A stretch of DNA of 29,331 bases. It comes from a virus. Below, in pieces: positions 12,928 to 26,773 of the stretch. The position numbers and the translations under genes are program-made. Positions within the stretch are counted from its first letter, which is position 1, and each line of letters opens with the position of its first letter. The stretch spans positions 1 to 29,331 of the IMG/VR virus record IMGVR_UViG_3300035180_003417, one strand, 5' to 3'. The notes beneath the pieces were generated by a model. It was not told the DNA's origin. It searched no databases and worked only from the letters and a program-made list of their open reading frames with translations.

Positions 12928-13229
12928 TTAATTATAACACAAGTTCAAGGCTTGTAATGATTTAATGCACCATTTGCAAAGATAAGTGTCAATTAATTCA
13001 TCAAAGCAATTTGTACCTAAAATCCAGCAATATCCAGTTTCAGTTCCATTTATCCAGTCAAATCGAAAATAAAGCTCAGCGGTAATAACTTCATAGGCAT
13101 GTTCGCCCTCTTCAAAGATTTAACCTGCTTGAAAAACCTAACCACTCTATCCCCAAGTTCAACAATGTGACCTTCAGATAGAGCAGCTAGTACTGAGTTT
13201 GCATGTTGTAAAGTTTTTAAGTCAGCTAT
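12928..13229 (-). pseudogene. Frameshifted small gene
   Basis: Two reading frames each look coding over part of this 300-base gap. One gives ADLKTLQHANSVLAALSEGH and continues to RVVRFFKQVKS. The other begins FEEGEHAYEVITAELYFRFD and runs to the stop at 12928. They join smoothly if one base is added in the A-run at 13114-13116 (minus TTT). No good start codon exists in the first frame: the nearest possibilities are an ATA at 13229 or a GTG within RVVRF. Either this is a decayed gene of about 95-100 codons or the read has a homopolymer error. I do not recognise the product. Confidence 0.6.
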
Positions 13230-13465
13230 ATTTGTAAGATTGGGGTAAAGGTTGCACTGATGACGTGGTCATTGATTTCTTCAATAGAGACTAACAAATC
13301 ATCAGCAAATTGATTAATAATCTCTTTAAATGCCATGACAACATCAGTTGTCAAAATTTCATTGTCTGGTACTTCCAGCTCTACACGATGGTTGTCAAAC
13401 ACTGATACTACGGCTTGTGGAATTTCGGTAGCGAATGTTTTTTGGATTGCTTCAGCGATGTTCAT
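13226..13465 (-). CDS. Small hypothetical protein (79 aa)
   Basis: I do not recognise this acidic protein. It appears to be alpha-beta (FATEIPQAVVSVFDNHRVEL, then a helix ending FADDLLVSIEEINDHVISAT) and could be a small ferredoxin-like fold. The ATG has a GGAGAAT Shine-Dalgarno and lies 2 nt after the preceding stop. It is part of the unit downstream of the polymerase-like gene. Confidence 0.65.
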   Translation of the reverse strand: MNIAEAIQKTFATEIPQAVVSVFDNHRVELEVPDNEILTTDVVMAFKEIINQFADDLLVSIEEINDHVISATFTPILQI

Positions 13466-13467
13466 CT

Positions 13468-13779
13468 TTATTCTCCAGCGTTAGCTATTTGAAGTAATTG
13501 TTTACGATACTTTACAATACGTTTACGCGCGGTTGTCAAGTATTTACCAGATAAATCACAGTTATTTTTTTGAGCATATTGTGCGCAATAACTTAACAGC
13601 CTTGCGTCAGCTGAGTTAAAGCCAATGCCATTTGTGTGCTTTGTGTCATGTATTACTTTTTCATCTTCAGTTTGCCGTTTGTAGATTGCAATTACCGCTC
13701 TAGTCACAGCTTTATCAGAAGAATTAAGTAATTCAATAATGCTTTGCTCTGTCCATTTTTTAGTAGTTGTAGTTTTCAT
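13468..13779 (-). CDS. Small basic phage protein with GFN-DA motif (103 aa)
   Basis: A basic protein, probably helical. The segment GIGFNSADARLLSYCAQYAQ, followed by LSGKYLTTARKRIVKYRKQL, resembles a small domain I recall in phage and plasmid DNA-metabolism proteins (G-F-N-x-x-D-A, then a lysine/arginine-rich helix ending K-Y-x-x-Q-L). I cannot name the family with confidence. The frame can start at TTG 13785, but the ATG at 13779 is better placed, about 8 nt after GAGAGGA. A nucleic-acid-binding role is inferred from charge and from its place near replication genes. Confidence 0.65.
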   Translation of the reverse strand: MKTTTTKKWTEQSIIELLNSSDKAVTRAVIAIYKRQTEDEKVIHDTKHTNGIGFNSADARLLSYCAQYAQKNNCDLSGKYLTTARKRIVKYRKQLLQIANAGE

Positions 13780-13854
13780 CTTCAAATCCTCTCATCAACT
13801 TATGGTAGAATTTTATCCTTAAAAACTAAAAAAGTAAACTAAAAAATGTTAAGT

Positions 13855-14433
13855 CTATAACACTTCTATACCAATTAAGTGCAGTTGAAGCACTATAATG
13901 TGAGCATACGCTATCGCATGAGATTTTTTAAATGAAAAACCATTAGTGTCCTTTAAATATAAAATGCCTCTACAAACATCACGGTTAGATAGGTAAAGTG
14001 GTAAAAGCTCTTGCTTACCTGGTCTAATTAGAGCTAGTGCATCAGCAAGTTCTTCAATTGATGTTGGCTGTAGTTGTTTTAACAGCTTTGCGTGTCTGCT
14101 AAGTTGAAATAACTTTTCAACTTCTGCCTCATTTAATAATATGCTCCAATCTGGTTCAAGGTCAAGTAACTGCAACATTTCAGTTCTTTCGGTGAAATGT
14201 TGATATATTGTTAAATGTAGAAAATCGAGCTTAAAATAACCGAGTTCTTCAGCTTGGTCATATGGAATTGCCGCAAGCTTAGTTATTGGGTCAACTGCAA
14301 TATCTTGTGGATAGATGCCACACGGATGCGGCCCAAGTACTTCATTTTTTACAACACTTGCTCTAACCCAGTTAGGAAAAAGAACTAGTGGATCAAATGA
14401 AGGGTCTAAGTCAATATCAATATCAAAGCTCAT
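13855..14433 (-). CDS. Catalytic half of split DNA polymerase III alpha-like protein
   Basis: Short collinear segments match the palm and thumb of DnaE. FDIDIDLD (residues 3-10) corresponds to PDFDVDF with the first two catalytic aspartates. GYFKLDFLHL holds Asp70, matching Asp555 of the E. coli enzyme. LADALALIRPGK matches the IALVALFRPGP region, and GFSFKKSHAIAYAH matches the YGFNKSHSAAYA motif. DnaE needs about 380 residues between the first and last of these motifs; here it is about 165, so much of the thumb and fingers is missing. The protein starts exactly where the GRGS-containing protein at 25812-26342 stops. It is coupled (ATGA) to the zinc-finger gene and downstream of the clamp loader. 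Polymerase activity is not assured. Confidence 0.75.
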   Translation of the reverse strand: MSFDIDIDLDPSFDPLVLFPNWVRASVVKNEVLGPHPCGIYPQDIAVDPITKLAAIPYDQAEELGYFKLDFLHLTIYQHFTERTEMLQLLDLEPDWSILLNEAEVEKLFQLSRHAKLLKQLQPTSIEELADALALIRPGKQELLPLYLSNRDVCRGILYLKDTNGFSFKKSHAIAYAHIIVLQLHLIGIEVL

Positions 14434-15182
14434 TCGCCTAAACCTAAATCATTCACGAATTCAATCAGTTCTTTTTGAAGCTCTTGATTTTTTGAAAGCC
14501 TTGAGCTCCAAGCTGAATACACAACGCTAGAATCAATAAGTTTAATCTCACTTTCATCTAATGTTGAAATATATTTCAACATTTTTTTTGATAAGAATAT
14601 CAGCCATGGTGATATTTTTTTAGTCCGTATTGCCTCTAAAAAGCGATTAAATCCAAGCCTATAAGGAACTTCAGCCAATTCGCATTCTAAAATCTCGGCT
14701 TGCTTTGTTAAATATTCTACCGAATCAGCAAATTGAACTAATGGGTCATTTAATTTATCGTAATACTCTAGGTAGAGAGAATATACCTCAGGAGTTGTCC
14801 ACATCGTGGGTGAAATGTCTGGGGATATCTTCATTATAGTAGAAACAAAATGCTCAGTATTCAACCCAAGTTGTTGCGCATATTGTGCAAATCTAAAAAA
14901 CGGACTGAATTGTTTTGAGGTACTAAATGTTTCAATTTTTGGGATTGAATGACGTTTAGCCTTCATCCATGAACAATACGTCGCGTAAGCTGTTTGACCA
15001 GTTATTGACTGAAGTTGTTCAAGTTTTTGTTTACCTTTACATATATGCGTCATAAAGCTACGTTCATATGCAAAGTTTTTCTTGCAATATGAACAATGCC
15101 AGCCATCTTGTTGAATGGTGACTTTTGCTCGGCGACCAACTGCTCTATTTTTAAGGTCGTATGTATCCATTGAGCTTTTCAT
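14430..15182 (-). CDS. C2HC zinc-finger protein of unknown function (250 aa)
   Basis: Residues 28-48 form a zinc finger: WHCSYCKKNF with Cys30 and Cys33, then FMTHICKG with His46 and Cys48 (C-x2-C-x12-H-x-C). The preceding segment is very basic (KNRAVGRRAKVTI). The remaining 200 residues are helical, and I do not recognise them. The start is coupled to the preceding stop, 2 nt away, and the stop overlaps the start of the polymerase-like gene. The position between clamp loader and polymerase suggests a DNA-bound replication or recombination factor, but no motif proves it. Confidence 0.75.
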   Translation of the reverse strand: MKSSMDTYDLKNRAVGRRAKVTIQQDGWHCSYCKKNFAYERSFMTHICKGKQKLEQLQSITGQTAYATYCSWMKAKRHSIPKIETFSTSKQFSPFFRFAQYAQQLGLNTEHFVSTIMKISPDISPTMWTTPEVYSLYLEYYDKLNDPLVQFADSVEYLTKQAEILECELAEVPYRLGFNRFLEAIRTKKISPWLIFLSKKMLKYISTLDESEIKLIDSSVVYSAWSSRLSKNQELQKELIEFVNDLGLGE

Positions 15183-15184
15183 GT

Positions 15185-15706
15185 TTATGAAAATATTGAA
15201 TTGAGTTGTTTCTTAGTAAACTTGATTGGAGTTGATGTTTGCCAAAACAGCTCACCATTCTCCAAAAATTCTTTAATGAATCCCTTGAGAATATGTTTAC
15301 TAATGTTATTGACATTAATGACGCCTTTAATAATTTCATAATAATTACCACCATCATGAATTTTAACACATCTTTCATAGATTGGAAAATCTAAAGTTTC
15401 ATATAACCGTTTAGCTTCAGTTCGTTCTTCAACTAAAATTTCACTCGCCTGTTTTTCAAAATCAAAATAATTCTGATCGCGCTTCGCGACATTTTCCGCG
15501 GCTATCTTACTTAGCCGACGATTAAGCTCAAATGTTGCAGTGCTTAGACAGAGCTGATAAACTAATGGACGACGCTCAGAGAGAAAATAACAATAAACCC
15601 AACTACCATCAATAATCATATCTGATGCATAGCCCTTATTGCCAATTTCATTGCGTACTGAACTTAAATAATCTTTTCGTAAAAGATGTTTCACATCATG
15701 CTCCAA
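15185..15706 (-). CDS. Hypothetical protein in the replication cluster (173 aa)
   Basis: I do not recognise this protein. It is soluble and charged, with a helical middle (AAENVAKRDQNYFDFEKQAS) and a C-terminal basic segment. It occupies the place where T4 has the translational repressor regA (directly after gene 62), but I see no resemblance to RegA, which is also shorter (122 aa). Its start overlaps the end of the small clamp-loader gene by 11 nt. Confidence 0.7.
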   Translation of the reverse strand: MEHDVKHLLRKDYLSSVRNEIGNKGYASDMIIDGSWVYCYFLSERRPLVYQLCLSTATFELNRRLSKIAAENVAKRDQNYFDFEKQASEILVEERTEAKRLYETLDFPIYERCVKIHDGGNYYEIIKGVINVNNISKHILKGFIKEFLENGELFWQTSTPIKFTKKQLNSIFS

Positions 15707-16178
15707 TTTCTTTCTTCAGTTTTTTAAGTTCATCCTGCTGCCATCCTAAATCCTCAGCAAGCTCGTAAATATCAGTTGACGATAATAAATCTAAGGTATC
15801 TAAAGCTTCTCTTGTTGAATACTCATAATAATCTTTTATTACCGTTAATGCTAAATTACTAGTTTTATTTTTTTTAGCTTCAGCAATCCATTGAAATCGA
15901 CGAGAGCGTTGACTACCACAGCAAGCAAGTAACTTACAATATAACTCCTCATGGTCTTTTCCAAGTTTAAACAGCAGTGAATTAACAAGCTCATTTACAT
16001 ACATCAGCTGCAATGCGTCGGCAGTGCCAGACATCCAACGAGTAATGATAAATGAAGAAAATCCCTTCTGCTCATCTTCACTTAATTTTTCCCAAATATG
16101 CAAATCTCTAGCATCAAGCTGAGAAAGTACCTTAAAGATGTCTAATTTAAACGCTGGCTTTTTTATTGGTTCTTTCAT
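15696..16178 (-). CDS. 62: Clamp-loader small subunit (T4 gp62-like)
   Basis: A 160-aa helical protein that begins at the ATGA overlap with the clamp-loader ATPase gene, exactly as T4 gene 62 follows gene 44. Segments such as DIFKVLSQLDARDLHIW, the central YCKLLACCGSQRSRRFQW and the C-terminal helix fit what I know of divergent phage gp62 proteins. That family is very poorly conserved, so position is the main evidence. In T4 one gp62 and four gp44 subunits form the loader that opens the sliding clamp. No clamp gene (gp45) is seen in this window. Confidence 0.7.
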   Translation of the reverse strand: MKEPIKKPAFKLDIFKVLSQLDARDLHIWEKLSEDEQKGFSSFIITRWMSGTADALQLMYVNELVNSLLFKLGKDHEELYCKLLACCGSQRSRRFQWIAEAKKNKTSNLALTVIKDYYEYSTREALDTLDLLSSTDIYELAEDLGWQQDELKKLKKEIGA

Positions 16179-17125
16179 AGAGCGCCAAGTTCAATAAAAC
16201 ATGCGGCTAAATTTATATCAACGTGAGTATAACTTGCATGCTTGTAAAGCCGGTCAGCAATTATCACAATAGCTTTTTCTTCAGTTTCTTGTTGTTTAAA
16301 TTTGGGACAACGGTGAATGTTTTGATACAGCCACTTGTATAGGTCTTCATACTCTTCACGCTGAACAACATCACAAACCAGCTTACGAGCTTGAGCAAAA
16401 TTGCTTTGTTCAATGTAATCTAAAAGCTTAATTTTATATTCAGATGAATCAGCAGCGCTAACACTTTCTCGCCAAATCAATTTACCCGACCTACAACTTT
16501 GTTGTAAGATTTGAATTGTTTTGCGAATGTCAGGATAAACAGCAGTGACAATCTTTTCAAGAGCCTCAAGGCTTGTTTCGTCAACTTCAATATCTTCAGT
16601 CATTAAGATTTCAGCCATTTTCTCCATAACTAAATCTTTTCCTGGAGCTTTAAAATTCACCTCTTGAAGGCGAGATTTAATCGCTGGCATTACTTTATTT
16701 GAGTAATTACAGGTGCAGATAAATCGGCAATTATCACTTGAATCTTCTATAATATGACGAAGCACCGCATATGCGTTTTGAGAAAGAAAATCAAATTCTT
16801 CAAGTTGAACAACTTTAAAATCTCCAATTGGCATTGTTTCAGCAAATCGGGATATTTTATCACGCATTGAATCAACACCAGTTTCATCAGAGCATTTAAT
16901 TCGCATTAAATCGGCTGGGTCAATTCCAAATTCATTTACGAGAACGCCAGACATGGTTGTTTTACCAGTGCCTTGAACTCCCGATAAAAGTAAATTAGGA
17001 AGGTCTTTTTCAGCAATAATTTTTTCAAAAAACTTTTTTTGAATTTCATCTTGAAAAATGACATCAGCTAAAGTAGTTGGTCGATATTTTTCAACCCATA
17101 ATTTTTTTAATTTTGATTTTGTCAT
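16175..17125 (-). CDS. 44: Clamp-loader ATPase large subunit (T4 gp44-like)
   Basis: An AAA+ ATPase of the RFC/gp44 clamp-loader family. It has VEKYRPTTLADVI at the N-terminus, Walker A GVQGTGKTT (residues 49-57), and a Walker B-like VVQLEEFDFL near 105-114. In the Walker B the usual Asp-Glu is Glu-Glu. Sensor 1 is in ICTCNYSNKV, and the arginine-finger segment IKSRLQEV is near 149. The length (316 aa) matches T4 gp44 (319 aa). It loads the sliding clamp onto primer-template junctions using ATP. It is coupled to the membrane protein upstream (TAATG) and to the gp62-like gene downstream (ATGA). Confidence 0.9.
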   Translation of the reverse strand: MTKSKLKKLWVEKYRPTTLADVIFQDEIQKKFFEKIIAEKDLPNLLLSGVQGTGKTTMSGVLVNEFGIDPADLMRIKCSDETGVDSMRDKISRFAETMPIGDFKVVQLEEFDFLSQNAYAVLRHIIEDSSDNCRFICTCNYSNKVMPAIKSRLQEVNFKAPGKDLVMEKMAEILMTEDIEVDETSLEALEKIVTAVYPDIRKTIQILQQSCRSGKLIWRESVSAADSSEYKIKLLDYIEQSNFAQARKLVCDVVQREEYEDLYKWLYQNIHRCPKFKQQETEEKAIVIIADRLYKHASYTHVDINLAACFIELGAL

Positions 17126-18168
17126 TATTGATTTTTATATTCGTTAAAAATTTTGCTATTTGCCGTTTCATCATAAAAAGTAACTTCAGAACCTGGCATA
17201 TAATTAATATCAGCTAATGTAGCACGAGGTTGATCAACTGAAGCCGCAAGAGATTTAGCTTGGTCAATCATTTCAGCCGGAAACATTTTATAAAGCTGCT
17301 GGTCTGTATCCTCAAGCTTACCTTCATCAAGTGAGTTAAAGTGCAAATTATCAGCGAGTTGTAAGTGAATTGGATTTTCAACTTTCGATTCAATTATAAC
17401 ATCTTGTTCGGTTGAATTAAACTCCTCTGTCACCTCAGGAATCACTTCTTCAACAACGTGTGTGGTATCTAATGGTTGAATTACTGGTCGCTGTTGACGC
17501 TTCTCGACCAAATAATTCCCAGCTAAAATTAAAGCAACGGCTAATGGGTCAAATACAAATATAATTAAGCCGATAATATAGCTCATTGCTGTTTCAGCGG
17601 TTTTTCCTGTAGCCTCAGCAATATAGGTGATTGGCCCAGAATGACTGCTTTTTTCTATTAATTCAACTTGCAATTTTGGTAATTGTTGGTCAAGCTCGAT
17701 TAAGCGAGTATTGACGTGCTCAAGTTCAACCTTAAATGAGTTAATTAGCTTAGTTCTTCCTTTCACCATGTCTGGTGGTAAGTTGCTAATTTGTAAATCA
17801 ATTTCCCGTTTTCTAGCTTCAAGCTTTTGTTTTTCTGCTGTTATAGCATCAACTTGAACTTGAATCGATTTAGTTGGAAGCAAAGCTTTTTGCGATGCTG
17901 CCGAAAGAAAACCAGCGCCACCAGCGCTGGTGATGGTCATTAGTACTGCTGATGCGGCAAAGAGATATCGGCGAAGCATTTTTGGAAGTGTCCGCCATTC
18001 TTTATACAGCAGCGAAACTGAAACTAACTTACCAAAATCAAATGCAATAGCTAGCGCTATGATTAATAGCGCATCGCCAAATAAGAGAGTTAACCCTTGA
18101 ATTGAAACTATCGTTCCGATGCCCTCTAAAAGAAGAGCGGCAAGGAACGTTAAGATTATAAAAAGCAT
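17125..18168 (-). CDS. Phage membrane protein with coiled coil
   Basis: I do not recognise a named family. Hydrophobic segments at about residues 1-22, 28-50 and 67-92 are followed by a long charged coiled coil (about 100-170, AEKQKLEARKREIDLQISNL). A fourth hydrophobic span (about 190-218) comes next, then an acidic, disordered C-terminal tail to 347. The layout suggests an inner-membrane protein with a large cytoplasmic or periplasmic coil. The start codon lies within a 10-bp inverted repeat (18167-18205), which may affect translation. It is the first gene of the coupled series leading into the clamp loader. Confidence 0.75.
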   Translation of the reverse strand: MLFIILTFLAALLLEGIGTIVSIQGLTLLFGDALLIIALAIAFDFGKLVSVSLLYKEWRTLPKMLRRYLFAASAVLMTITSAGGAGFLSAASQKALLPTKSIQVQVDAITAEKQKLEARKREIDLQISNLPPDMVKGRTKLINSFKVELEHVNTRLIELDQQLPKLQVELIEKSSHSGPITYIAEATGKTAETAMSYIIGLIIFVFDPLAVALILAGNYLVEKRQQRPVIQPLDTTHVVEEVIPEVTEEFNSTEQDVIIESKVENPIHLQLADNLHFNSLDEGKLEDTDQQLYKMFPAEMIDQAKSLAASVDQPRATLADINYMPGSEVTFYDETANSKIFNEYKNQ

Positions 18169-18205
18169 AGTAGATAATTCCTATTAAGATAGACATATCT
18201 ACTAT
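18167..18205 (-). promoter_or_regulatory. Hairpin enclosing the start site of the membrane-protein gene
   Basis: A perfect 10-bp inverted repeat (ATAGTAGATA at 18167-18176 and its complement at 18196-18205) has a 19-nt loop. On the minus-strand transcript the start ATG (18166-18168) falls at the base of the stem, and the likely Shine-Dalgarno (AGGA) is in the loop. It could modulate translation, but one such repeat is expected by chance in a window of this size and base composition. Confidence 0.35.
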
Positions 18206-18213
18206 TTAACTTT

Positions 18214-18594
18214 TTATTCGATGAACTGTAACTCAGGATACAAACTCCTAATGGTAAAGAAGTCAATGTAGTCAGATGACAAGTGGGCATCATGAACTGC
18301 GATTTGACAAATGATTTTATCGATGATTTCTTGGTGAGTATATTCACCATTCAACAAATCGAATGAACCGGTCAAGTGTGGCAAACCGGTAGCAACATTT
18401 TTGTCGACTGCATCACGAGCGGCCGCTTTGGAAAATTGATCGCTAGGAGCTTTGTATGCAACGCCCCAGACACAACGTGAAAACTTTTCATCTACATTCG
18501 TTACCGACGTTGAAATGGTAACGCACAGTTTATGAAGTTTTGGAAATAATGCAATCTGACCCAGCCGCAAATAACGATTTTTTTTTACAGACAT
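18214..18594 (-). CDS. Hypothetical phage protein (126 aa)
   Basis: I do not recognise the family. It is a soluble protein with a basic N-terminus (SVKKNRYLRLGQIALFPKLH). The middle reads FSRCVWGVAYKAP and LPHLTGSFDLLNGEYTHQEI, and the C-terminus is acidic. An AGAGGA Shine-Dalgarno precedes the ATG. It lies 24 nt after nadV on the same strand and is likely co-transcribed with it. Confidence 0.7.
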   Translation of the reverse strand: MSVKKNRYLRLGQIALFPKLHKLCVTISTSVTNVDEKFSRCVWGVAYKAPSDQFSKAAARDAVDKNVATGLPHLTGSFDLLNGEYTHQEIIDKIICQIAVHDAHLSSDYIDFFTIRSLYPELQFIE

Positions 18595-18618
18595 AGTTCT
18601 ATCCTCTTTTTGTGTTGA

Positions 18619-20100
18619 TTAAATTTGAATTGTTCCAGCTCTTGCCCTTGCTTGAACATCGTCAAATGACTGACGATATTCACGAAACCCAGTATCAAAG
18701 TAAGACCGCCAACCAGGTTGATCGACCCACATTGTCATTTCACCACTGAACTCTTTAAGGTTGTCAATTACCTCCAGCTCACCAGTTTGATTTTCTCTGC
18801 AACGAGCTAAACCAGTTAATGATTTTTTACCACTGTCAGTTTTTGGGTCTTTTAACAGGCTTTGCCAATGTCCATTTGACAACTTATTCGCTATTGCTTT
18901 AACCGAGAAGCTGAAGTCATCACGTCTACCATCATGGGTAACGCCAGAGCCCATGCCCATGCAGAAGTTGTCTAAGCTAAAGCCACCATTAAATACCCAG
19001 CCTTTGATGATTGCCTCATGGGTTTGAACCACAACACCATCGCCTTGGATAACACCGATTGCTGGGTGTAAAACGTCGAAGCCAGCAGCATTTGTAGTTG
19101 CGCCAAAACGGTTTCTGAAGATTGTTCCAATTTCAGCAGGTTTTGTTGTTGCATCGCCGCTGTCAGGGCGACCAATCAATCGACCACCAGAATTAATGAT
19201 ACGATCTTTTAACAACTGACCGAGATATTCATCAGCAAAGCGAATATCATCAAACGTATCGATAACTACGGATACAAATGGAATGCCAATACCAGTTTCA
19301 TTTACGCGTCTAACAGCAGCTTCAAGCTGTTCAACCATCATTACCGCCGCACCATAATCGTCTTTTTTTGCGCAATTTGAATTACTGGTCATAGTGTAAT
19401 GCTCTGAAGCATCGATTGATGATGTGTAATTCTTTTGTGTACGATACAACTTTTTGATATAGCGATTAGCTTGTAGGCAATCGCTGCCATTAAACAACAT
19501 AGCGTGAGCCATTGCAGCAAGAACAGCGGCTTCAGGAGCATCAGCACCACGATCGCCAAAGTTGTGCAGCATGTAACTGATATCATCTTTAGTGTCCGTC
19601 ATTTCTGCATAGTGATACAGAGTTTTTCTAATAGCTCGGCAGATTGAAGCCACAGTGGTCATTTTCCAGCCGATACATTGGATGATAGTTTCAACATCGC
19701 CAACAAGCCAAGCAAAACCTGGTTTGCTGTTAATCCAACCCATCATCGGAGTTTGTGGCTTGATGATACGGCCTTCTTCAACACCAAAAATTTTTAATGG
19801 CAACTTGCCGTCAAATTCACGAACAATTCGCATCCAGCCTTCACGGTAGAATTCATAGCCTTGAGCTTCAATTTCAAGTTGAGCTTCGTCAACCATGTCT
19901 TCGGTAATACGAACAGAAGCAAGATATGAGGCAATCATGTGTTGACCGGCTGAAACAATTTCGTCAGCATAATCAGCGTATTGCCGTGGAACCATGACCG
20001 TGTAGGTATAATCAACATCAGTTGGTATTTGTTTCCAGTGACAAGCTTTATATCCATCGCAAGTTAAAATAAAATTGGATGATGCTAAATGCTCTATCAT
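18619..20100 (-). CDS. nadV: Nicotinamide phosphoribosyltransferase
   Basis: This enzyme makes nicotinamide mononucleotide from nicotinamide and PRPP. NAMPT motifs are clear: CDGYKACHWKQIP near residue 14 (family D-S/G-Y-K-x-x-H-x-x-Q), LHNFGDRGADAPEAA near 178, DASEHYTM with His234 equivalent to the phosphorylated catalytic His247 of human NAMPT, and GRPDSGD near 310. The length (493 aa) is normal. An AAAGGAG Shine-Dalgarno precedes the ATG. With the NMN adenylyltransferase/Nudix protein at 22903-23952 it forms a two-step route from nicotinamide to NAD+. This is the arrangement first noted in phage KVP40 and later described as a phage NAD+ reconstitution pathway. Confidence 0.95.
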   Translation of the reverse strand: MIEHLASSNFILTCDGYKACHWKQIPTDVDYTYTVMVPRQYADYADEIVSAGQHMIASYLASVRITEDMVDEAQLEIEAQGYEFYREGWMRIVREFDGKLPLKIFGVEEGRIIKPQTPMMGWINSKPGFAWLVGDVETIIQCIGWKMTTVASICRAIRKTLYHYAEMTDTKDDISYMLHNFGDRGADAPEAAVLAAMAHAMLFNGSDCLQANRYIKKLYRTQKNYTSSIDASEHYTMTSNSNCAKKDDYGAAVMMVEQLEAAVRRVNETGIGIPFVSVVIDTFDDIRFADEYLGQLLKDRIINSGGRLIGRPDSGDATTKPAEIGTIFRNRFGATTNAAGFDVLHPAIGVIQGDGVVVQTHEAIIKGWVFNGGFSLDNFCMGMGSGVTHDGRRDDFSFSVKAIANKLSNGHWQSLLKDPKTDSGKKSLTGLARCRENQTGELEVIDNLKEFSGEMTMWVDQPGWRSYFDTGFREYRQSFDDVQARARAGTIQI

Positions 20101-20156
20101 AGTAAATCTCCTTTACTTTAAATTAAAAGATCCAGGTCTATCCCAAATCTTACTAT

Positions 20157-20181
20157 ATTATACTACATTTTTAAGATTATA
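20157..20181 (-). promoter_or_regulatory. Tandem -10 boxes upstream of nadV
   Basis: Two perfect TATAAT hexamers on the minus strand (20157-20162 and 20176-20181) lie in the 87-nt gap between nadV and the NADAR gene. No convincing -35 element was found at the right spacing for either. In AT-rich sequence such boxes are common, so this is only a candidate promoter for nadV. Confidence 0.35.
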
Positions 20182-20187
20182 CACTTT

Positions 20188-20724
20188 TTATTCGTATGGA
20201 TTTGCGTCGTCAAAAAGGCGAACATAATTCTTTATCTCGGTAATTAATTCTCCGAGCCAGTTTCTACCTCGCCATTGTTCTTCTGGCGTTATTAGCGCGG
20301 TAGCTTCATCCAAACCAATACCCCAAATCGTATCATACGGTGAAGCTTTAACCAAAATCTTATCACCAGTATCCAAAAGCTGTTTTAAGAGCTTTGGGTC
20401 CTGGTTAAACTTTTCATAAAGCCCTGGGTAGATCAAACGTTTTGCATTTGCTTCCCAAACTCCTACATCAAAGTTTTTAACTAAGCGACCAAAGTCTTTG
20501 ATTTCTTTTGGATCACTAGATTGCATGATCTTATCAGCAATCTCAACATCCTCAAATAAACCAGCTTTCTTGAACACCATGTACTGCTCGCCACAGTTAA
20601 ACATCAATGGGCCATAATCTTTGTCGGCTATCACATTGTCATGCATCTTGAAATAGCTTGGATACCAGTTAGAAAAAGGTCCAGACCAAAAGAAATAAAA
20701 TTTTCCGTTATGTATGTCAGTCAT
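20188..20724 (-). CDS. NADAR (YbiA-like) family protein
   Basis: Matches the NADAR/YbiA fold throughout: FFWSGPFSNWYPSYF at the N-terminus, CGEQYMVFKKAGLF (Glu46 in the family's catalytic region), FGRLVKNF, and LYEKFNQDPKLLKQLLDTGD. The closing motifs ASPYDTIWGIGL and RGRNWLGEL are also present. Family members are N-glycosidases acting on riboflavin intermediates, and some have been reported to remove ADP-ribose from guanine bases. The length (178 aa) is normal. It sits between nadV and a deoxyribosyltransferase-like gene with short spacings, and a GGAG Shine-Dalgarno precedes the start. A role in reversing ADP-ribosylation of phage DNA is plausible from this context but not proven. Confidence 0.88.
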   Translation of the reverse strand: MTDIHNGKFYFFWSGPFSNWYPSYFKMHDNVIADKDYGPLMFNCGEQYMVFKKAGLFEDVEIADKIMQSSDPKEIKDFGRLVKNFDVGVWEANAKRLIYPGLYEKFNQDPKLLKQLLDTGDKILVKASPYDTIWGIGLDEATALITPEEQWRGRNWLGELITEIKNYVRLFDDANPYE

Positions 20725-20727
20725 GAA

Positions 20728-21213
20728 TTATTCTCCGTGATTTTCATATTGATTAATTGTGTTGTCAATAAATGCGATTAAGCGTGCTAAGCTATTAAGT
20801 TGTGGGATAGCAAATCTATCACAAATGATTTCAACATTGCCTTTCCGATAAAAGCCATCAGGGCAACAAACAACTGCTGGTTTTTTCAAACCGACAACAA
20901 GACCAAGTTCAGCCAATGTGATTGGGGATTTAGTTGCTGGATCAATGTAGAATACGACTAAATCACTGCCCATAATGCCATTCAATTCCCAATTCACTTG
21001 CTCTCTGAACACTGGATCTTCGACCGATTGAACAACCGCATTATTCCAATCGTCTCGACGAGGATTAAAGAATGAAACATTTTTCGACTTAAAGCTTTGA
21101 ACAATCTTTTCTTGCCAGCGTTCAGCAGCATTCATCTCTATTGAGCCAGCTAAAAAGATTGTTGGACCAAGCTTTTCGAATTTTTGAAATAGGGGTGGTT
21201 GTAGTTCAATCAT
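20728..21213 (-). CDS. Nucleoside 2-deoxyribosyltransferase-like protein
   Basis: TIFLAGSIEMNAAERWQEKI near the N-terminus, FNPRRDDWN, and WELNGIMGSDLVVFYIDP are typical of the nucleoside 2-deoxyribosyltransferase-like family. ITLAELGLVV follows, with the catalytic-type Glu. These proteins hydrolyse or exchange N-glycosidic bonds of nucleosides or related compounds. At 161 aa it is a single-domain protein. It is coupled by 4 nt to the PurA fragment upstream and followed closely by the NADAR gene. The fold and the company suggest base, ribose or ADP-ribose chemistry, but the substrate is unknown. Confidence 0.82.
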   Translation of the reverse strand: MIELQPPLFQKFEKLGPTIFLAGSIEMNAAERWQEKIVQSFKSKNVSFFNPRRDDWNNAVVQSVEDPVFREQVNWELNGIMGSDLVVFYIDPATKSPITLAELGLVVGLKKPAVVCCPDGFYRKGNVEIICDRFAIPQLNSLARLIAFIDNTINQYENHGE

Positions 21214-21704
21214 TTTTTAAACCGCACGTCGTTTCTAGTTGGACAAAAGCTGAGATAATTTGCTTGTTGAGATAAGTAACTGTGTTGCAGCTTATCAGCC
21301 CACGTTACAGCAAGTGAAACCTTTTTATGTTTTGCTTGAATATGCTGGCTATCATGCAAAATTCTAAAAGCGAGATCATTTATATCATTTTGTTTTATCG
21401 GAGCAAACCTGAGGTGTTGCTGGTAATCGTTGAAGATGTTTGTCTTATCTTCAAATTCTTCTGGCCAACGTATCTCATTTTCAAGTGGGCCAGCACCATG
21501 TCGAGTAAGATAGCCACGAGTAACGTAAATTAATTCGACGTAAAGATCATCATGACCTTTAATGCACTTTGCAATATTTTCAGCACCACATGCCGATGGA
21601 GTACAGTATGGCATTGTTCCATACTGTTCATCAAGTAATAGCCCTTGAGCGCCTTCGAAGATGACTGTATCATGTGTTCGCATCACAAGGTCCATTGTAT
21701 TCAT
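21210..21704 (-). pseudogene. Adenylosuccinate synthetase-like fragment (C-terminal half)
   Basis: The fragment begins just before a PurA motif: VIFEGAQGLLLDEQYGTMPY, followed by the family's VTRGYLTRHGAGPLENEI and a C-terminal segment ending SFCPTRNDVR. The N-terminal half, which holds the P-loop (G-D-E-G-K-G-K) and most of the IMP/GTP site, is missing, so it cannot be an active synthetase alone. The frame extends to TTG at 21707. The best start is the ATG at 21704, which overlaps the stop of the truncated kinase (TGATG) with no Shine-Dalgarno. It could be a remnant of a phage purA/purZ-type gene after a deletion joined it to the neighbouring gene. Confidence 0.72.
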
Positions 21705-22402
21705 CAATAGATACAGGTCGAATGGTACTGTGGGCTAACAAAAACATTAGTTGTTGTTAAACCATTGTGATTTAAATTAATGTAATTCAAAAAACAGTTC
21801 GTATTCAATAACGAACTGACAATCCAAGCCACATGTTTAGGAGGTATTTTACCACCCAAGTGATCGATTAAATCTTGTAACAATACGACATCTTCAGTCT
21901 TTTTCATCACAAAGACGTGGCCAATCGAGCAGTCAACTCCACTGAAAATGATGTCCGGCATATAACGCGTAAACTCGTCTTTGAATTTGTCAAGAGGATA
22001 GTGAATTGCGCCAATCTGTTTTTGAGCGTTTTCAAATAATGGTTTAAAATTTTGATCGATAACATACATCAAAAATTTGCGCCCGATGTAAAGCTTACCA
22101 ACTTCAATTTCATGGAAACGACGATATTTAAAAACCATCTTTTTCTTGTCATTTGTATAGAACAAGATTTCATTTGGGCCATTCCAAGTACCCATTCCAA
22201 GCTGCTCTAAAGCAGTTTCTTTCAGCTCATTTAAGTGCTGAAAAACCTTGGTGGCATCCGGCGATTTGTTTCGGTCTGGGTGCCATTTAGACTTTATCTT
22301 CCGATGCTGAATGATGATGTCAACCGGATTAAACAGTTTGTCAGGGCGATTCTTTGGAATTGCTAAGATGTCAGACGCTGATAATGAATCCAAGTCAATC
22401 AT
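21704..22402 (-). pseudogene. J-domain protein kinase, C-terminally truncated
   Basis: Residues about 28-65 form a J domain with the HPD motif (KSKWHPDRN, residues 38-45). The rest resembles the N-lobe and catalytic loop of a small phage J-domain kinase. The last recognisable segment is NHNGLTTTNVFVSPQYHS, equivalent to an H-x-D-x-x-x-x-N catalytic loop with the Asp changed. The expected activation region and C-lobe are missing, and the frame ends shortly after at 21704. The PurA-like fragment starts at the same point, so a deletion probably fused the two genes. The N-terminal J domain may still be made: an AGGAG Shine-Dalgarno precedes the ATG. Confidence 0.72.
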
Positions 22403-22403
22403 A

Positions 22404-22490
22404 TTAAGCTCCTAATGGACTTCCGCGTTTATAGCTTTCTTCCATAGCCCAAGTGATAATGTCCAAGTGATCTCTCATATGAATAATCAT
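22404..22490 (-). CDS. Very short ORF or gene tail (28 aa)
   Basis: A short frame (MRDHLDIITWAMEESYKRG and a few more residues) ends by overlapping the start region of the J-domain kinase, and its last codons contain that gene's Shine-Dalgarno. The composition looks coding, but there is no Shine-Dalgarno of its own. The homing-endonuclease remnant begins 11 nt upstream on the other strand. It may be the surviving 3' end of a gene cut by that insertion, or a tiny intact gene. Confidence 0.4.
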   Translation of the reverse strand: MIIHMRDHLDIITWAMEESYKRGSPLGA

Positions 22491-22500
22491 TTATTATTTT

Positions 22501-22859
22501 GGAATTAAAATAAAAGTATTTGGATTCATCTATCTTACTACAAATTTGGTCAATAATAAAAAATATCTAGGATCTGGAAAGTTTTTATTAAAATCTATTA
22601 AAAAATATGGCATTGAGAATTTCGCCAGAGGGTTTACTGGGGGAAAACACTCTAATGAATTTAAACTTAAACAAGCAGAGCATTGCAAAAAAGACCAATC
22701 ACGGAAAATATGCGAAATGCATTTCGCATAAATGGAACGAAAACTGGTGGTTTTTATCATACAGAAAGTCATAAAAAAGCAATAATAAATTGTGGTAAAA
22801 TGAATAGAGGTAAAAATGGTATAACAATGGAATACGAAATTTTTACTTTTTCCAACTAA
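22501..22859 (+). pseudogene. Remnant of a GIY-YIG homing endonuclease
   Basis: In one plus-strand frame (from 22501) the sequence reads VFGFIYLTTNLVNNKKYLG, then SGKFLLKSIKKYGIENF. This is the classic start of Seg-type GIY-YIG homing endonucleases (GFIY with KYLG). It is followed by GFTGGKHSNEFKLKQ, a NUMOD-like DNA-binding motif. That frame stops at 22731. A second frame (22710-22859) continues with FYHTESHKKA and CGKMNRGKNG, another NUMOD-like repeat. The catalytic Glu region between the two parts is deleted, and no start codon or Shine-Dalgarno remains, so it is a dead gene. It lies on the strand opposite the NAD genes. Confidence 0.75.
22709..22730. repeat. 22-bp perfect palindrome
   Basis: A perfect inverted repeat of 22 bases around the centre AATGCATT, with outer arms TATGCG/CGCATA, lies in the homing-endonuclease remnant, where the two coding frames meet. 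It could be a protein-binding site, a hairpin left by a repair or deletion event, or a chance feature of the coding sequence. Confidence 0.6.
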
Positions 22860-22902
22860 TTTAAAAATAAATGAACAACAATTAACACTCGGGTTTAAAT
22901 CA

Positions 22903-23952
22903 TTACATTGAATCACATGCATTTTTTGCAAATCGAATTATATCAATATGATCTTCAAATAAAAACTCTTCCATCTCCAAAGCATCATCTAAAGGAAACC
23001 ACTTTGCTTTCGTGGCATCGTCGCCACCTTTCACCTTAGACAGCTCACCATTTGGTAAGACAAATGCGAAAGCGTGGGTAATTGTGCGGCCGCGTAATGA
23101 TCGACCTGGGTGGTCAAATACATGTCGAGCTACCATTGAACCTGCCAAAACCGCGGTAGGTACCTTCAATTTTGTTTCTTCACGAAGCTCCCGCAAAACA
23201 CCAACCGTGACAGTTTCATCTTGATTGAGGAATCCGCCAGGAAGAGCCCAAAGACCTTTGCCAGGAGCTGCTTTTCGTTGAACCAGCAAGATGTGACCAG
23301 ACTGAATAATCGCCGCATCCGTTGTCACAAAGATTGGTGGATATGGTGCTTTTTCCCAAGCCGATTTATACTTTTTAACAAACTCAAATTCAGTCACAAG
23401 GTCAGAATATTGTTCGGCCTTTGACCATTGGCGCAAGAAATCTTGAAGCGGTTTAGAGATGAAGTCTTTATCATGCCATTGAAATAACCTACCAGTAAAA
23501 TATTCTTCGCGTATGGCCGTGGCGTTGACGTCTTCGATTTGTTCCATCTCAATAAATTTCCATTGAGGGAACATATCGAGGTAGTAGCTAGATGAATCTT
23601 TTTTGCAGCCGATGATACCAATTTTTGGCTTATCAATTCCGATGATTTCTTGTTTGACTAAGCGTTGAACTTGTTGTGCCCACTCTTGGTCATTATATCG
23701 GTAATCATGGATGCCGCGGCAGCTAACACTTGGAGTATCAGCTGGCTCTAATTGATTAATGAGCATGGTAGCTCGTTCATGCCAACTCCAAGGATTTTTA
23801 ATTGTGCGTGGTTGAAAACTTGAACCAAAAAGAACTAAGACTTTTTTAGAAAGTTCAATAGCGGTTTTAACATTGGCAATGTGCGCCAAGGTTGGTGGTT
23901 GCATACGACCAATATAGATTACTAAATCGTACGGTTTTGAGATTTTTTGCAT
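22903..23952 (-). CDS. natV: Bifunctional NMN adenylyltransferase/Nudix hydrolase
   Basis: Residues about 8-155 form an archaeal-type NMN adenylyltransferase: YIGRMQPPTLAHIANVK near 13-29 (nucleotidyltransferase loop), and DVNATAIREEYF near 141-152 (S/N-x-T-x-x-R motif). Residues about 205-345 form a Nudix domain with an intact box from GGFLNQDET to RELREETKL (240-262). The first domain makes NAD+ from NMN and ATP. The Nudix half probably hydrolyses ADP-ribose or related compounds. The length (349 aa) equals known bifunctional proteins, and an AGGAG Shine-Dalgarno precedes the ATG. It completes the nicotinamide-to-NAD+ route with NadV, from which it is separated by several genes and a decayed insertion. 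Confidence 0.93.
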   Translation of the reverse strand: MQKISKPYDLVIYIGRMQPPTLAHIANVKTAIELSKKVLVLFGSSFQPRTIKNPWSWHERATMLINQLEPADTPSVSCRGIHDYRYNDQEWAQQVQRLVKQEIIGIDKPKIGIIGCKKDSSSYYLDMFPQWKFIEMEQIEDVNATAIREEYFTGRLFQWHDKDFISKPLQDFLRQWSKAEQYSDLVTEFEFVKKYKSAWEKAPYPPIFVTTDAAIIQSGHILLVQRKAAPGKGLWALPGGFLNQDETVTVGVLRELREETKLKVPTAVLAGSMVARHVFDHPGRSLRGRTITHAFAFVLPNGELSKVKGGDDATKAKWFPLDDALEMEEFLFEDHIDIIRFAKNACDSM

Positions 23953-24019
23953 GATTTGCTCCTAGTTTAAAGTAACACCTGGAAAATTCGAGAAGAAGAT
24001 ATCTAAGACAAGATTTAAA

Positions 24020-24187
24020 TCATATCTTATGAATTTGTCCATCTTGAATGACAGCGGCGGCCAACATTAATTTGTTTTCTAGAGGAGCTTGATTGAATTC
24101 AGCAACTATATCTGAAGAGACATAATATGTAGTATTCCAAAATGTTTTTTGAAAACCCTTTGGCGCATATGCTATTGAATCGGTCAT
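24020..24187 (-). CDS. Small protein (55 aa)
   Basis: A short open frame in the 350-base stretch before natV. The ATG at 24187 has AAGGGGA about 7 nt upstream, and the frame reads TDSIAYAPKGFQKTFWNTTY, then LMLAAAVIQDGQ, to a TGA. I do not recognise it. The good ribosome site and protein-like composition support a real gene. It may belong to the unit with the proteins at 24304-25510. The bases on either side (23953-24019 and 24188-24303) contain nothing else I can name. Confidence 0.6.
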   Translation of the reverse strand: MTDSIAYAPKGFQKTFWNTTYYVSSDIVAEFNQAPLENKLMLAAAVIQDGQIHKI

Positions 24188-24303
24188 AAGGAATCCCCTT
24201 AAGAAGTTTGTTGAAATCGTCTATCAATTCCAATTCGATTTTTAATAAATCTATCTTATCACAAAGATTTATTGAGGTACATTATTATTTATCGCGAAAT
24301 AAT

Positions 24304-24666
24304 TTAAAAACTTGCAGCTAATGGAGTATCATCTACAGAAGTATGTTGCACGGCTGGATGTGTAAACCCAAAGTCATTAATCAATGAACAAGCTAAACCT
24401 TCAACCACTTGTAATATTGCTTTTCGTTGTTCTGATTCTGCAAAATAACTTAGCGGAAGAGTTTCCACTTTGTTAACGTTTGCAGAGCGAATTGAAAAAG
24501 TAACTTTATTTTTGGTTACTTTTTCAATAAAAATCATTAACTCAGAAATGCCATGAATGCCACGATATTTTGCAAGAACGAATTTTTCACATAACGGAAT
24601 CATTCGCTCATATAAGTAACCAAACATAATTTCTTCATCGAGTGCCATATGAATAGGTTCAGCCAT
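24304..24666 (-). CDS. Hypothetical protein (120 aa)
   Basis: I do not recognise it. It is soluble, with an N-terminal helix (EPIHMALDEEIMFGYLYERM), a central beta hairpin (TKNKVTFSIRSANVNKVETL) and a C-terminal helical part. A GGACT-type Shine-Dalgarno lies 6 nt before the ATG. It follows the 69-aa protein gene by 10 nt, in a run of small phage genes downstream of the co-chaperonin. Confidence 0.65.
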   Translation of the reverse strand: MAEPIHMALDEEIMFGYLYERMIPLCEKFVLAKYRGIHGISELMIFIEKVTKNKVTFSIRSANVNKVETLPLSYFAESEQRKAILQVVEGLACSLINDFGFTHPAVQHTSVDDTPLAASF

Positions 24667-24676
24667 GTTAGTCCAT

Positions 24677-24886
24677 TCAAGAAAAAGATTTTGTCGTGAT
24701 TGATATTACAGTAGGAATTATATCAAGGTCAGAGTCAACTTTCGACTTATTTCTTAAAATATTTTCTTTAGCTGTTAATATAGTAGTCAACTGGCCAGTA
24801 TTAATATGACGATCCAATTGGTCAAAGAAGTCAAATTTTATATCGATTTCTCTGATATCTTCAAGGCTTGATTTAATAGTCGTCAA
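24677..24886 (-). CDS. Small hypothetical protein (69 aa), TTG start
   Basis: I do not recognise it. The acidic, mostly helical product reads SLEDIREIDIKFDFFDQLDR then a helix containing LTAKENILRNK. The only plausible start is TTG, which overlaps the co-chaperonin stop as TTGA, so it is translationally coupled. There is no in-frame ATG. The same stop-start arrangement occurs at 25623-25626. Confidence 0.55.
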   Translation of the reverse strand: MTTIKSSLEDIREIDIKFDFFDQLDRHINTGQLTTILTAKENILRNKSKVDSDLDIIPTVISITTKSFS

Positions 24887-25224
24887 TATCGATACGTAAC
24901 AGCTTCATCATCAGCGGTCGCTAAGATGAATGATTCTTCAGTTTGCCAAAACCTATCATCATCAAAATTTATTCCAAGCGTCCATTTGCCCGGTTCAACT
25001 AAAATGTATTTGCTTTTAGCTATTTCTTGATTTACCTCCACTCCACATGATAATACCTCACCCCATTTTGGTTTGTGAATTTCTTGGTAGGTATTAAAAT
25101 CTGTCACCATTATACCTGACCTAGTTTTTGGCATGAAGCCATCTTTAGTAAGTGGGTCAGTAAATTTAAAAAGGATTTTATCATGCAATGGTGTAACTGA
25201 ACGATTTTTAGTAAAATGTGTCAT
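24883..25224 (-). CDS. GroES/gp31-like co-chaperonin
   Basis: The sequence fits the GroES fold: VTPLHDKILFKF at the start, SGIMV preceding the mobile-loop-like NTYQEIHKP, KWGEVLSCGVEVN, the EPGKWTLG strand, and the closing ESFILATADDEAVTYRY. The 113-aa length is near T4 gp31 (111 aa), which replaces GroES so that GroEL can fold the large capsid protein. Sequence identity to GroES is low, as expected for phage gp31-type proteins, so the call rests on the order of these segments. No Shine-Dalgarno is obvious. Its stop is coupled to the small TTG-start gene. Confidence 0.75.
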   Translation of the reverse strand: MTHFTKNRSVTPLHDKILFKFTDPLTKDGFMPKTRSGIMVTDFNTYQEIHKPKWGEVLSCGVEVNQEIAKSKYILVEPGKWTLGINFDDDRFWQTEESFILATADDEAVTYRY

Positions 25225-25246
25225 ATGATTTTATAAATTTAAGTTT

Positions 25247-25510
25247 TTATTCTTTTTGTTGTTCAACTTCTGAATCGACAACCGTCGCGTTTATCGCAAA
25301 ACTTAGCGCTGAAATATCTTTAAGTGCATTTTGAGCTACTGGTTGCGAATTTGCGCTAACTACTTTAGGTTTTACCCCATCTTTTTCATCAATAAAGCGA
25401 CGACGCTCTTGTGTGCCGATTTGAATTGGATTATTTGCAAGTTGCTGTTTGATTTTAATGACGTCAAAATCAACTAACTCGCCGCGGGCTGATCTAGCTC
25501 TGGCTGCCAT
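25247..25510 (-). CDS. Conserved small phage protein (87 aa)
   Basis: The N-terminus, ARARSARGELVDFDVIKIKQ, followed by RRRFIDEKDG, recalls a short basic protein I associate with marine T4-like phages (A-R-G-x-x-V-D-F-D-x-x-K-I-K-Q-Q). I cannot name its function. The C-terminal half looks disordered and acidic. A GGAGAG Shine-Dalgarno lies 8 nt before the ATG, so it is well translated. It lies 23 nt before the gp31-like gene. Confidence 0.75.
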   Translation of the reverse strand: MAARARSARGELVDFDVIKIKQQLANNPIQIGTQERRRFIDEKDGVKPKVVSANSQPVAQNALKDISALSFAINATVVDSEVEQQKE

Positions 25511-25554
25511 ATTGTAGCTCTCCGTTTATGGTTATGAAATAAATAGTGATGTTT

Positions 25555-25626
25555 CTATTTATCTTGCAATGTTTTATAAAAGTCAGCAATTTGTTGCATT
25601 TCTTGTAACGTAGCGTTATTTTTCAA
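25555..25626 (-). CDS. Tiny ORF or downstream half of a frameshifted gene (23 aa)
   Basis: This frame gives NNATLQEMQQIADFYKTLQD and a stop, starting from TTG that overlaps the stop of the 49-aa frame as ATTGA. The segment looks like the natural end of a helical protein, continuing the 49-aa frame in another phase. Either it is coupled as a tiny gene, or a frameshift split one gene of about 72 codons. Confidence 0.4.
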   Translation of the reverse strand: MKNNATLQEMQQIADFYKTLQDK

Positions 25627-25772
25627 TCGATTTGCTTTCCAAGATTAATGCGGTTGTTATAGATAAAGTGTAGGTCGCGAACTGCAATTTCCACACCTAT
25701 TCTAAACAATTTCAAAGCTATTCTATAGAGACAGCAATGTTCAGCAATCTTATTTATGCGTCTCAAAAACAC
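25623..25772 (-). CDS. Small basic protein (49 aa), GTG start
   Basis: The open frame begins at GTG 25772 with AGGA about 10 nt upstream. It reads FLRRINKIAEHCCLYRIALK, then LFRIGVEIAVRDLHFIYNN, to TGA. It is basic and helical, not recognised, and fills most of the 300-base gap downstream of the polymerase-III-alpha-like N-terminal gene. It overlaps the 23-aa frame by 4 nt, see that entry for the frameshift possibility. The other bases of the gap (25511-25554 and 25773-25811) show nothing further. Confidence 0.5.
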   Translation of the reverse strand: MFLRRINKIAEHCCLYRIALKLFRIGVEIAVRDLHFIYNNRINLGKQID

Positions 25773-25811
25773 ACCAGTGGATGTCCTGTGTATTATGTCT
25801 ATGCCTAAAAA

Positions 25812-26342
25812 TTAGTCATGAAAGAATTCACTCCAATGAATGTTGTATTGTAATGGGTTTACTTGATGTAAGCCAATTAAGTATAGTAGATAACTTGCGC
25901 AACTACTCCCACGACCAATTCCCCAAAGTTGATTATTCTTCTTGAATGTTTCAACAACATAGATGATTGTGCGTAGCCCATTTTCAAAATTGAACTTATG
26001 AACTTGATGTAGTTCTTCACAAACACGTTCAATTTGTTGTTCATTTAATTTTTTTTGAACTATTTCATTTGCAAAATAATCTTGAAGGTCTAAATTAAGA
26101 TATCGTTCTGGTATTAGCCATTTTGGAGAAAAAGAAAGCTCTTGGTCAACTGAGAATTCTAGCAACTGAACTTCAGAGCGTTCATTGAATTTGATGGTAT
26201 CTAAAGAATGTTCAGTAAGTTTGATTTTTGATGGTGGAACCTGGCGCAGCAAAAGTTCATAAACTGATTCGGGTTCAACAACTGAAGTTCCATCTCCAAG
26301 AAGAAGTCGTTCTTTTAATACTGTTATGGCAGCTGGATGCAT
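25812..26342 (-). CDS. GRGS half of split DNA polymerase III alpha-like protein
   Basis: The C-terminal 40 residues are a clear match to the DnaE palm entry. QLWGIGRGSSCASYLLYLIG (139-158), followed by HQVNPLQYNIHWSEFF, equals the bacterial V-G-P-G-R-G-S, S-L-V-A-Y, then D-P-L, F-E-R-F series that binds the incoming nucleotide. The residues before this fit the preceding helical linker of DnaE. The PHP domain is absent. The protein stops directly after the FERF equivalent, exactly where the other half (13855-14433) begins with the catalytic aspartate motif. At 176 aa it would need that partner to form a palm. It overlaps the dCMP deaminase gene by 19 nt, so both are co-transcribed. Confidence 0.78.
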   Translation of the reverse strand: MHPAAITVLKERLLLGDGTSVVEPESVYELLLRQVPPSKIKLTEHSLDTIKFNERSEVQLLEFSVDQELSFSPKWLIPERYLNLDLQDYFANEIVQKKLNEQQIERVCEELHQVHKFNFENGLRTIIYVVETFKKNNQLWGIGRGSSCASYLLYLIGLHQVNPLQYNIHWSEFFHD

Positions 26343-26773
26343 TGTAATCCATTATCAAGTAATATTTCAATTCCCTCTGGGTCGCGATCATATTTGGTTA
26401 AGTAATAAACTTTTTTAATTCCAGCCATTACAATCGTCTTTGCACATGGTCCACAAGGGCTATAAGTGACAGCCATGTCCCAACCATCAACAGCGATACC
26501 AAGTTTTGCCGCAGTAGCAATTGCTGAAATTTCAGCGTGAGATTCATGTCTACGTGACCATTCTCCATGGGCGACGTAAAATTCTGGTGAAGTTTTATCC
26601 CAGTTCGCAAATACATCAATGCAGTGCTCTCGCTTCGGCATGCTGCCATTCCAGCCTGAATTAATAATTCGACCATCTTTAACAATGATAGCCGCAACAT
26701 TAAGGCGAGCGCAAGTACTATTTTTCATAGTGGCGAGCAGCAATTCTTTGTAAAATTGAGCATACTTTGTCAT
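26324..26773 (-). CDS. cd: dCMP deaminase
   Basis: A zinc-dependent deaminase that converts dCMP to dUMP for dTMP synthesis. The catalytic core is complete: SHAEISAI with His79 and Glu81, and SPCGPCAKT with Cys107 and Cys110. The early VAAIIVKDGRIINSGWNG strand and the inserted HCIDVF segment are typical of T4-type dCMP deaminase. The 149-aa length is slightly shorter than T4 Cd (193 aa). The start codon and ribosome site are within a perfect 12-bp hairpin (26772-26803), which suggests regulated expression. Confidence 0.92.
   Translation of the reverse strand: MTKYAQFYKELLLATMKNSTCARLNVAAIIVKDGRIINSGWNGSMPKREHCIDVFANWDKTSPEFYVAHGEWSRRHESHAEISAIATAAKLGIAVDGWDMAVTYSPCGPCAKTIVMAGIKKVYYLTKYDRDPEGIEILLDNGLQCIQLP

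Follow-up and report, generated by a model that had tools for sequence, protein, structure and literature searches.

Two half-genes of one DnaE palm

The window analyzed here, IMG/VR virus record IMGVR_UViG_3300035180_003417, is a metagenomic fragment of 29,331 bases that carries a minimal DNA polymerase III alpha subunit (DnaE) divided between two genes, both of them open reading frames (ORFs) on the minus strand. The first, at positions 25812-26342, encodes the N-half, a protein of 176 amino acids (aa) with a GRGS motif at residues 143-146. The second, at 13855-14433, encodes the catalytic C-half, a protein of 192 aa with Asp4, Asp6, Lys68, Asp70, Arg137 and His172. A preliminary description of the window had read the motifs by eye (GRGS in one protein; Asp4/Asp6, Asp70 and KKSHA in the other), and our analysis confirmed both the frames at the coordinates first noted and the placement of the motifs in the two proteins. 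In Pfam, residues 91-174 of the N-half, and no others, match DNA_pol3_alpha (PF07733, E 3.5e-12), and the C-half matches DNA_pol3_finger (PF17657, E 1.2e-5). The corresponding PHROGs families, phrog_11127 (E 9.7e-38) and phrog_11778 (E 6.9e-58), are both named "DNA polymerase". The two chains combined have 368 residues, a length that would, to our knowledge, place the pair among the smallest C-family enzymes.

AlphaFold2 models of the two proteins, built on alignments of 74 natural sequences for the N-half and 85 for the C-half, have mean pLDDT values of 92.4 and 95.3, respectively. When the models were aligned to E. coli alpha (2hnh) by VIA-align, that of the N-half spanned residues 279-394 and that of the C-half residues 398-782, and the halves therefore tile the palm without overlap; fold comparison with 4jom gave nearly the same limits (271-394 and 399-782). 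The best polymerase match of the N-half has a Z-score of 12.9 to residues 304-414 of 5lew, over 101 residues, against 2.9 for the best unrelated structure. The C-half aligns to PolC (3f2b) and 2hnh with Z-scores of 10.3 and 10.1, its best unrelated structure reaching 3.5. Foldseek likewise ranks C-family polymerases first for both halves, support that is modest by itself: template modeling (TM) scores normalized to the model lie between 0.31 and 0.55 across the polymerase rows, and six rows of the C-half list reach E <=0.001, but no row of the N-half list does (best E 7.1e-3). No AlphaFold models of cellular proteins were in the fold libraries compared. The N-half's first ~70 residues have no assigned fold and are hardly covered in the VIA-align lists. 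Across both chains combined, a Pol-beta-type palm with its GS motif and three catalytic aspartates is present. These data bear out the proposal that the two genes each encode one side of a single DnaE palm, divided between its GS and DxD motifs, and also the claim that nothing recognizable is lost at the cut, since the N-half ends at E. coli DnaE residue 394 and the C-half begins at 398.

In the split-intein DnaE of cyanobacteria, the intein halves lie at the ends that face the cut. No intein parts were found at the cut-facing ends of the window proteins: only 2 residues follow EFF at the end of the N-half, and the C-half has its first aspartate at residue 4, which leaves no room for them. An intein or a trans-spliced intron is thus ruled out for lack of coding room at the ends. 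A scan of Rfam returned one match only, to SL1, whose 29.2 bits fall short of the threshold of 75.

A 2021 paper on the split Pol III alpha of group 2.2 jumbo phages reportedly has Iyer as its first author. As far as its available text goes, the published account (PMC7824862; Viruses 2021, 13:63) already describes DnaE split in "group 2.2" jumbo phages into two standalone proteins encoded by distantly located genes, the N-part binding nucleoside triphosphate (NTP) and the C-part Mg2+ and template. The same phages are said there to carry a family B polymerase. The authors suggest that an enzyme is restored when the halves join, and they offer the pair as a model of ancestral Pol III. The window pair is alike in having two standalone proteins, separate loci and a cut between NTP-binding and metal-binding parts. 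The split itself, which the preliminary description had regarded as the main novelty, is therefore not new; the split minimal Pol III alpha is already described, and the window is a further case of an uncharacterized enzyme. Relative to the accessible part of that account, we add the exact position of the cut, an analysis of selection, a carrier genome of 141 kb, a zinc-finger gene that precedes the C-half in 92 of 95 loci, and four contigs with a one-piece DnaE. In a paper on Callisto (PMC11079468), the portion available lists a "DNA polymerase III" and a "putative DNA polymerase".

Distribution and selection

Searches by tblastn with the window proteins retrieved 113 phage records for the C-half and 441 for the N-half, numbers that probably include the complete DnaE of other phages. 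With queries from within the family, the C-half of locus L175 found 63 phage records and the N-half of L101 found 60; among the matches listed, 60 C-half accessions are the same as the 60 N-half accessions. Because all 60 of these listed C-half records also match the N-half, the split is not a fresh gene break. The three further C-half records are, by organism counts, probably two from Alishewanella and one from Klebsiella phages, and a profile search located the N-half in Alishewanella phage Slickus01. The phages that share the cut are mostly large. The genome of Slickus01 (OQ508957.1) has 141,644 bases, below the 200-kb jumbo limit, and carries both halves together with a family B polymerase. 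Genome size thus does not define the gene pair.

In 12 named phage records that were searched whole, each half occurs once and both lie on one strand (12/12), a family B polymerase is present (12/12) and PF07733 matches at a single place, the N-half (12/12). A complete DnaE elsewhere in the genome, named beforehand as evidence against a split enzyme, was accordingly not found with PF07733 in any of these relatives. In 16 other records PF07733 has one place in a small ORF in 11, a 572-aa frame in record G007 and no place in 4; it has one place in the window, itself a 29-kb fragment. The same searches of eight IMG/VR records, most of them short, found a C-half in every one, an N-half in 3 and family B in 2.

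The distance between the halves in the named records ranges from ~11 kb in Slickus01 to more than 200 kb in Phosso. The 22 loci with both halves (19 distinct contigs, three counted twice) have the two genes on one strand, the N-half upstream and 4.3-14.9 kb away; these loci are at most ~40 kb long, so more widely spaced pairs cannot show there. The order is not fixed, as the C-half precedes the N-half in GAP32 and others. No ORF matches both profiles in the 203 sequences fetched (202 loci and the window, some overlapping). Looking in relatives for the same split or a fused gene, as had been suggested, therefore yielded the same split in dozens of phages and no fused gene. A scan of viral contigs with a single N-half sequence returned no relative, and an alignment query did fetch relatives; in plasmids there was no DNA-level match to window positions 13226-17125. 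Pbunavirus was considered as an independent split and dropped, phage PB1 having one polymerase gene of 3,108 bases.

All 85 C-halves have Asp4, Asp6, Asp8, His36, Gly39, Lys68, Asp70, Arg137, Pro138, His172 and Tyr176, and Lys170 is kept in 80 of the 85; in the N-halves, Arg106, Glu110 and the G-x-G-R-G-S core are invariant (74/74). The ratio of nonsynonymous to synonymous substitution rates (dN/dS), taken for pairs with dS of 0.05-2 that are not mutually independent, has a median of 0.131 for the C-half (187 pairs, highest 0.358) and 0.154 for the N-half (122 pairs, highest 0.246). Both genes are under purifying selection. Because selection of this kind is joined to invariant catalytic residues, a relic is unlikely, and the idea of a regulatory relic, one of two options raised at first, does not fit these values.

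The preliminary description had also placed a dead GIY-YIG gene between the halves and suggested a homing endonuclease as a cause of the split. A possible homing endonuclease remnant does lie at 22546-22731 on the plus strand, its assignment resting on a match of 22 residues to phrog_314 (E 0.0018). We judge this remnant to be unrelated to the DnaE split. A homing endonuclease as the maker of the split is not supported: dozens of phages share the split with widely varying distances between its parts, the two genes are not neighbors and no unsplit ORF occurs in the 203 sequences; the intervals of the relatives were not searched for endonucleases. What such an event looks like can be seen in the family B polymerase of Paride (OR805295.1 87883-93109), which consists of two adjacent pieces with an annotated homing endonuclease gene between them. 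Family B is also encoded by two neighboring genes in Slickus01 (OQ508957.1 2558-5196) and Atu_ph07 (NC_042013.1 211877-214846). As in the DnaE pair, a polymerase is found in two pieces within the same phage group, but the Paride pieces flank the endonuclease gene directly, whereas the DnaE halves are 4 kb to more than 200 kb apart. The DnaE pair does not resemble the endonuclease-type split of Paride. The remnant and the Paride arrangement are the points in favor of the view that a homing endonuclease broke a DnaE gene whose pieces are now decaying; set against the recurrence of one cut in so many phages, the want of any ORF matching both profiles and the constraint on both genes, they leave this explanation very improbable.

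Gene surroundings

At its start, the C-half gene overlaps by 4 bases the gene of a zinc-finger-like protein (14430-15182, minus strand; phrog_11058, E 1.2e-38). Further upstream on the same strand lie a 173-aa ORF with no convincing family match (15185-15706), the clamp loader small subunit (gp62-like, 15696-16178; phrog_225, E 4.3e-11) and the clamp loader large subunit (gp44-like AAA+, 16175-17125; phrog_168, E 1.7e-73). The catalytic half had been said to sit next to the clamp-loader genes; they are nearby and upstream of it, with two genes in between. The start of the N-half gene overlaps by 19 bases a dCMP deaminase gene (26324-26773, minus strand; PF00383, E 2.4e-20). Annotations put a primase or replicative helicase no more than 4 kb downstream of the C-half in 10 of the 12 named records; XacN1 and RAS14 have no such annotation near it. 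On its upstream side several records, GAP32, RaK2, Slickus01 and Paride among them, have an annotated helicase or clamp-loader gene at a distance of a few kb.

The zinc-finger label comes from a zf-C2H2 match with E 0.29, far below the cut-off, and from the annotation of one relative of the phrog_11058 protein as "C2H2-type domain-containing protein". Among the 95 loci whose upstream sequence extends for at least 3 kb, a few contigs being counted twice, a homologue lies upstream of the C-half within 1.5 kb in 83 and farther away in 9, and none was seen there in the remaining 3 (L005, L132, L139). The gene has nearly the same phage range as the halves (61 records), which may only mark one phage clade. 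We therefore propose the zinc-finger protein as a candidate third component, a lead rather than proof of partnership.

Several other genes of the window, all on the minus strand, were noted as well. Those for a nicotinamide phosphoribosyltransferase (18619-20100) and a cytidyltransferase/NMN adenylyltransferase-Nudix protein (22903-23952) form an apparent nicotinamide adenine dinucleotide (NAD) salvage pair, and similarly annotated genes are found near the halves in XacN1 and RAS14. The 165-aa protein encoded at 21210-21707 matches phrog_1211 (adenylosuccinate-synthetase-like, E 1.5e-20) over positions 209-303 of 414 only and is a truncated or split relative. An NAD-dependent DNA ligase (1910-3895) and an alpha-glucosyltransferase-like protein (5031-6443) are encoded as well.

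A probable two-subunit polymerase

The window pair is real and looks functional. What the analysis shows is homology, adjoining coverage of one fold, co-occurrence in the same phages, invariant catalytic residues, purifying selection and the location of the C-half among replication genes. We favor, as the probable reading, a two-subunit minimal C-family (Pol III alpha) polymerase with a palm formed in trans and a secondary role beside family B. In this scenario the N-half would contribute the GS (GRGS) nucleotide-binding element and the C-half the metal-binding aspartates and reduced fingers. Most likely, both halves are made during infection and associate into one Pol-beta-type palm in trans. 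The enzyme would then work beside the phage family B replicase, its activity being probably one of secondary synthesis, such as gap filling, repair or one-strand synthesis.

Several observations weigh against this model, the first being how much of DnaE is missing. Bacterial DnaE and PolC share with the pair the GRGS, DxD, third Asp, RP and KSHA elements and the same palm fold, but they are one long chain (910-1220 residues in the solved structures) that includes a PHP domain, a thumb, full fingers and HhH, OB and clamp-binding parts, all of them absent from the pair. Over 85 sequences, Asp6 and Asp70 of the C-half are separated by 60-65 residues and Arg137 and His172 by 32-39; the same points in M. 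tuberculosis DnaE1 (5lew), counted on the alignment, are 164 and 120 residues apart. From these far shorter spacings it follows that the thumb, which would stand between the second and third catalytic aspartates, and much of the fingers (~85 residues fewer) are gone. The PHP domain is absent: alignment of the N-half to 2hnh and 4jom starts no earlier than residues 271-279, and Pfam gives no PHP match. The C-half ends 20 residues past the KSHA His, at 2hnh residue 782, with nothing after the KSHA helix, and its chain therefore lacks the HhH, OB and clamp-binding parts; other chains that might supply them were not searched for. Because these parts, the PHP domain and the thumb are missing, the pair may not be a normal polymerase.

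The same losses raise the possibility that the pair is one nucleotidyltransferase that is not processive and adds one or a few nucleotides in end processing, gap filling or lesion bypass. The residues of the chemistry are kept while the thumb and finger residues have gone, and the 12 named relatives possess a family B polymerase. Against this alternative, another protein such as the zinc-finger neighbor or the clamp could supply the lost DNA grip; we regard it as possible, though on the unlikely side. A more elaborate version of the two-subunit polymerase, in which the palm forms only in trans and the zinc-finger protein holds the DNA in place of the missing thumb and tail, strikes us as doubtful.

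The main complication comes from contigs where the C-half has a compact DnaE of one piece for a neighbor and the N-half was not found (G007, which has 182,953 bases, and three short contigs, G047, G069 and G070). One-piece proteins of about 566-577 aa are encoded at L163:8745-10445, L175:16103-17836, L179:6182-7891, G007:C1:63332-64990 and LR756508.1:47361-49043; in the four metagenome contigs the gene lies ~4-6 kb from the C-half of the split family. They have TRGS, DVDID and VDIL elements of their own, TRGS replacing GRGS in the three sequences read, and hence a C-half can coexist with a complete compact palm. LR756508, a 484-kb uncultured phage, has the one-piece DnaE together with family B and is not among the listed rows of the half-gene searches. 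Like the pair, the compact DnaE is phage-borne, has no room for PHP before the palm and, in LR756508, is accompanied by family B; unlike the pair, it is one chain, with a longer insert between the aspartates and, where read, TRGS instead of GRGS.

Unpaired halves point the same way. The N-half was not detected in G012, G017 and G018 (148-280 kb), each with a C-half, nor in G011, where the C-half is at the contig end, and seven records have the N-half only. In total, the 21 records profiled, which apart from SCTP-2 come from IMG/VR and may be fragments, comprise 9 with both halves, 4 with the C-half only, 7 with the N-half only and G007 with its C-half and 572-aa one-piece DnaE. The N-profile matches in 5 of 49 C-half records, 38 of which are shorter than 50 kb, and 3 of those 5 matches are the one-piece DnaE.

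The C-half without a detected N-half in G007, G012, G017 and G018, and the one-piece DnaE near the C-half in G007, G047, G069 and G070, would suit a C-half that acts alone or with another partner, the N-half not being needed. Against this, records lacking the N-half may be partial, and all 60 phage records compared by accession have both halves. The Pol-beta-type transferases known to us, moreover, contain the GS motif, which in the split family is on the N-half. We therefore consider an independent C-half quite unlikely and retain the two-subunit polymerase. Two further points bear on that model: a family B polymerase was not identified among the window ORFs scanned, and the window's own cannot be seen in a 29-kb fragment; and we found no experimental study of the pair and no activity data, in a search that left bioRxiv and most subscription papers outside.

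It would be very unusual for a nucleotidyltransferase to carry its GS motif on one polypeptide and its catalytic aspartates on another. If the three-part version is true, these phages would have two polymerases of unrelated kinds at work, the family B replicase and a C-family enzyme of three parts whose assembly can be controlled. If the pair works, it would offer a model of the bacterial replicative polymerase's active site that is minimal and perhaps switchable, and one could test what maintains a second polymerase in phages equipped with a family B replicase. The one-piece compact DnaE of some relatives offers a comparison for the idea of an ancestral Pol III put forward in the available part of PMC7824862.

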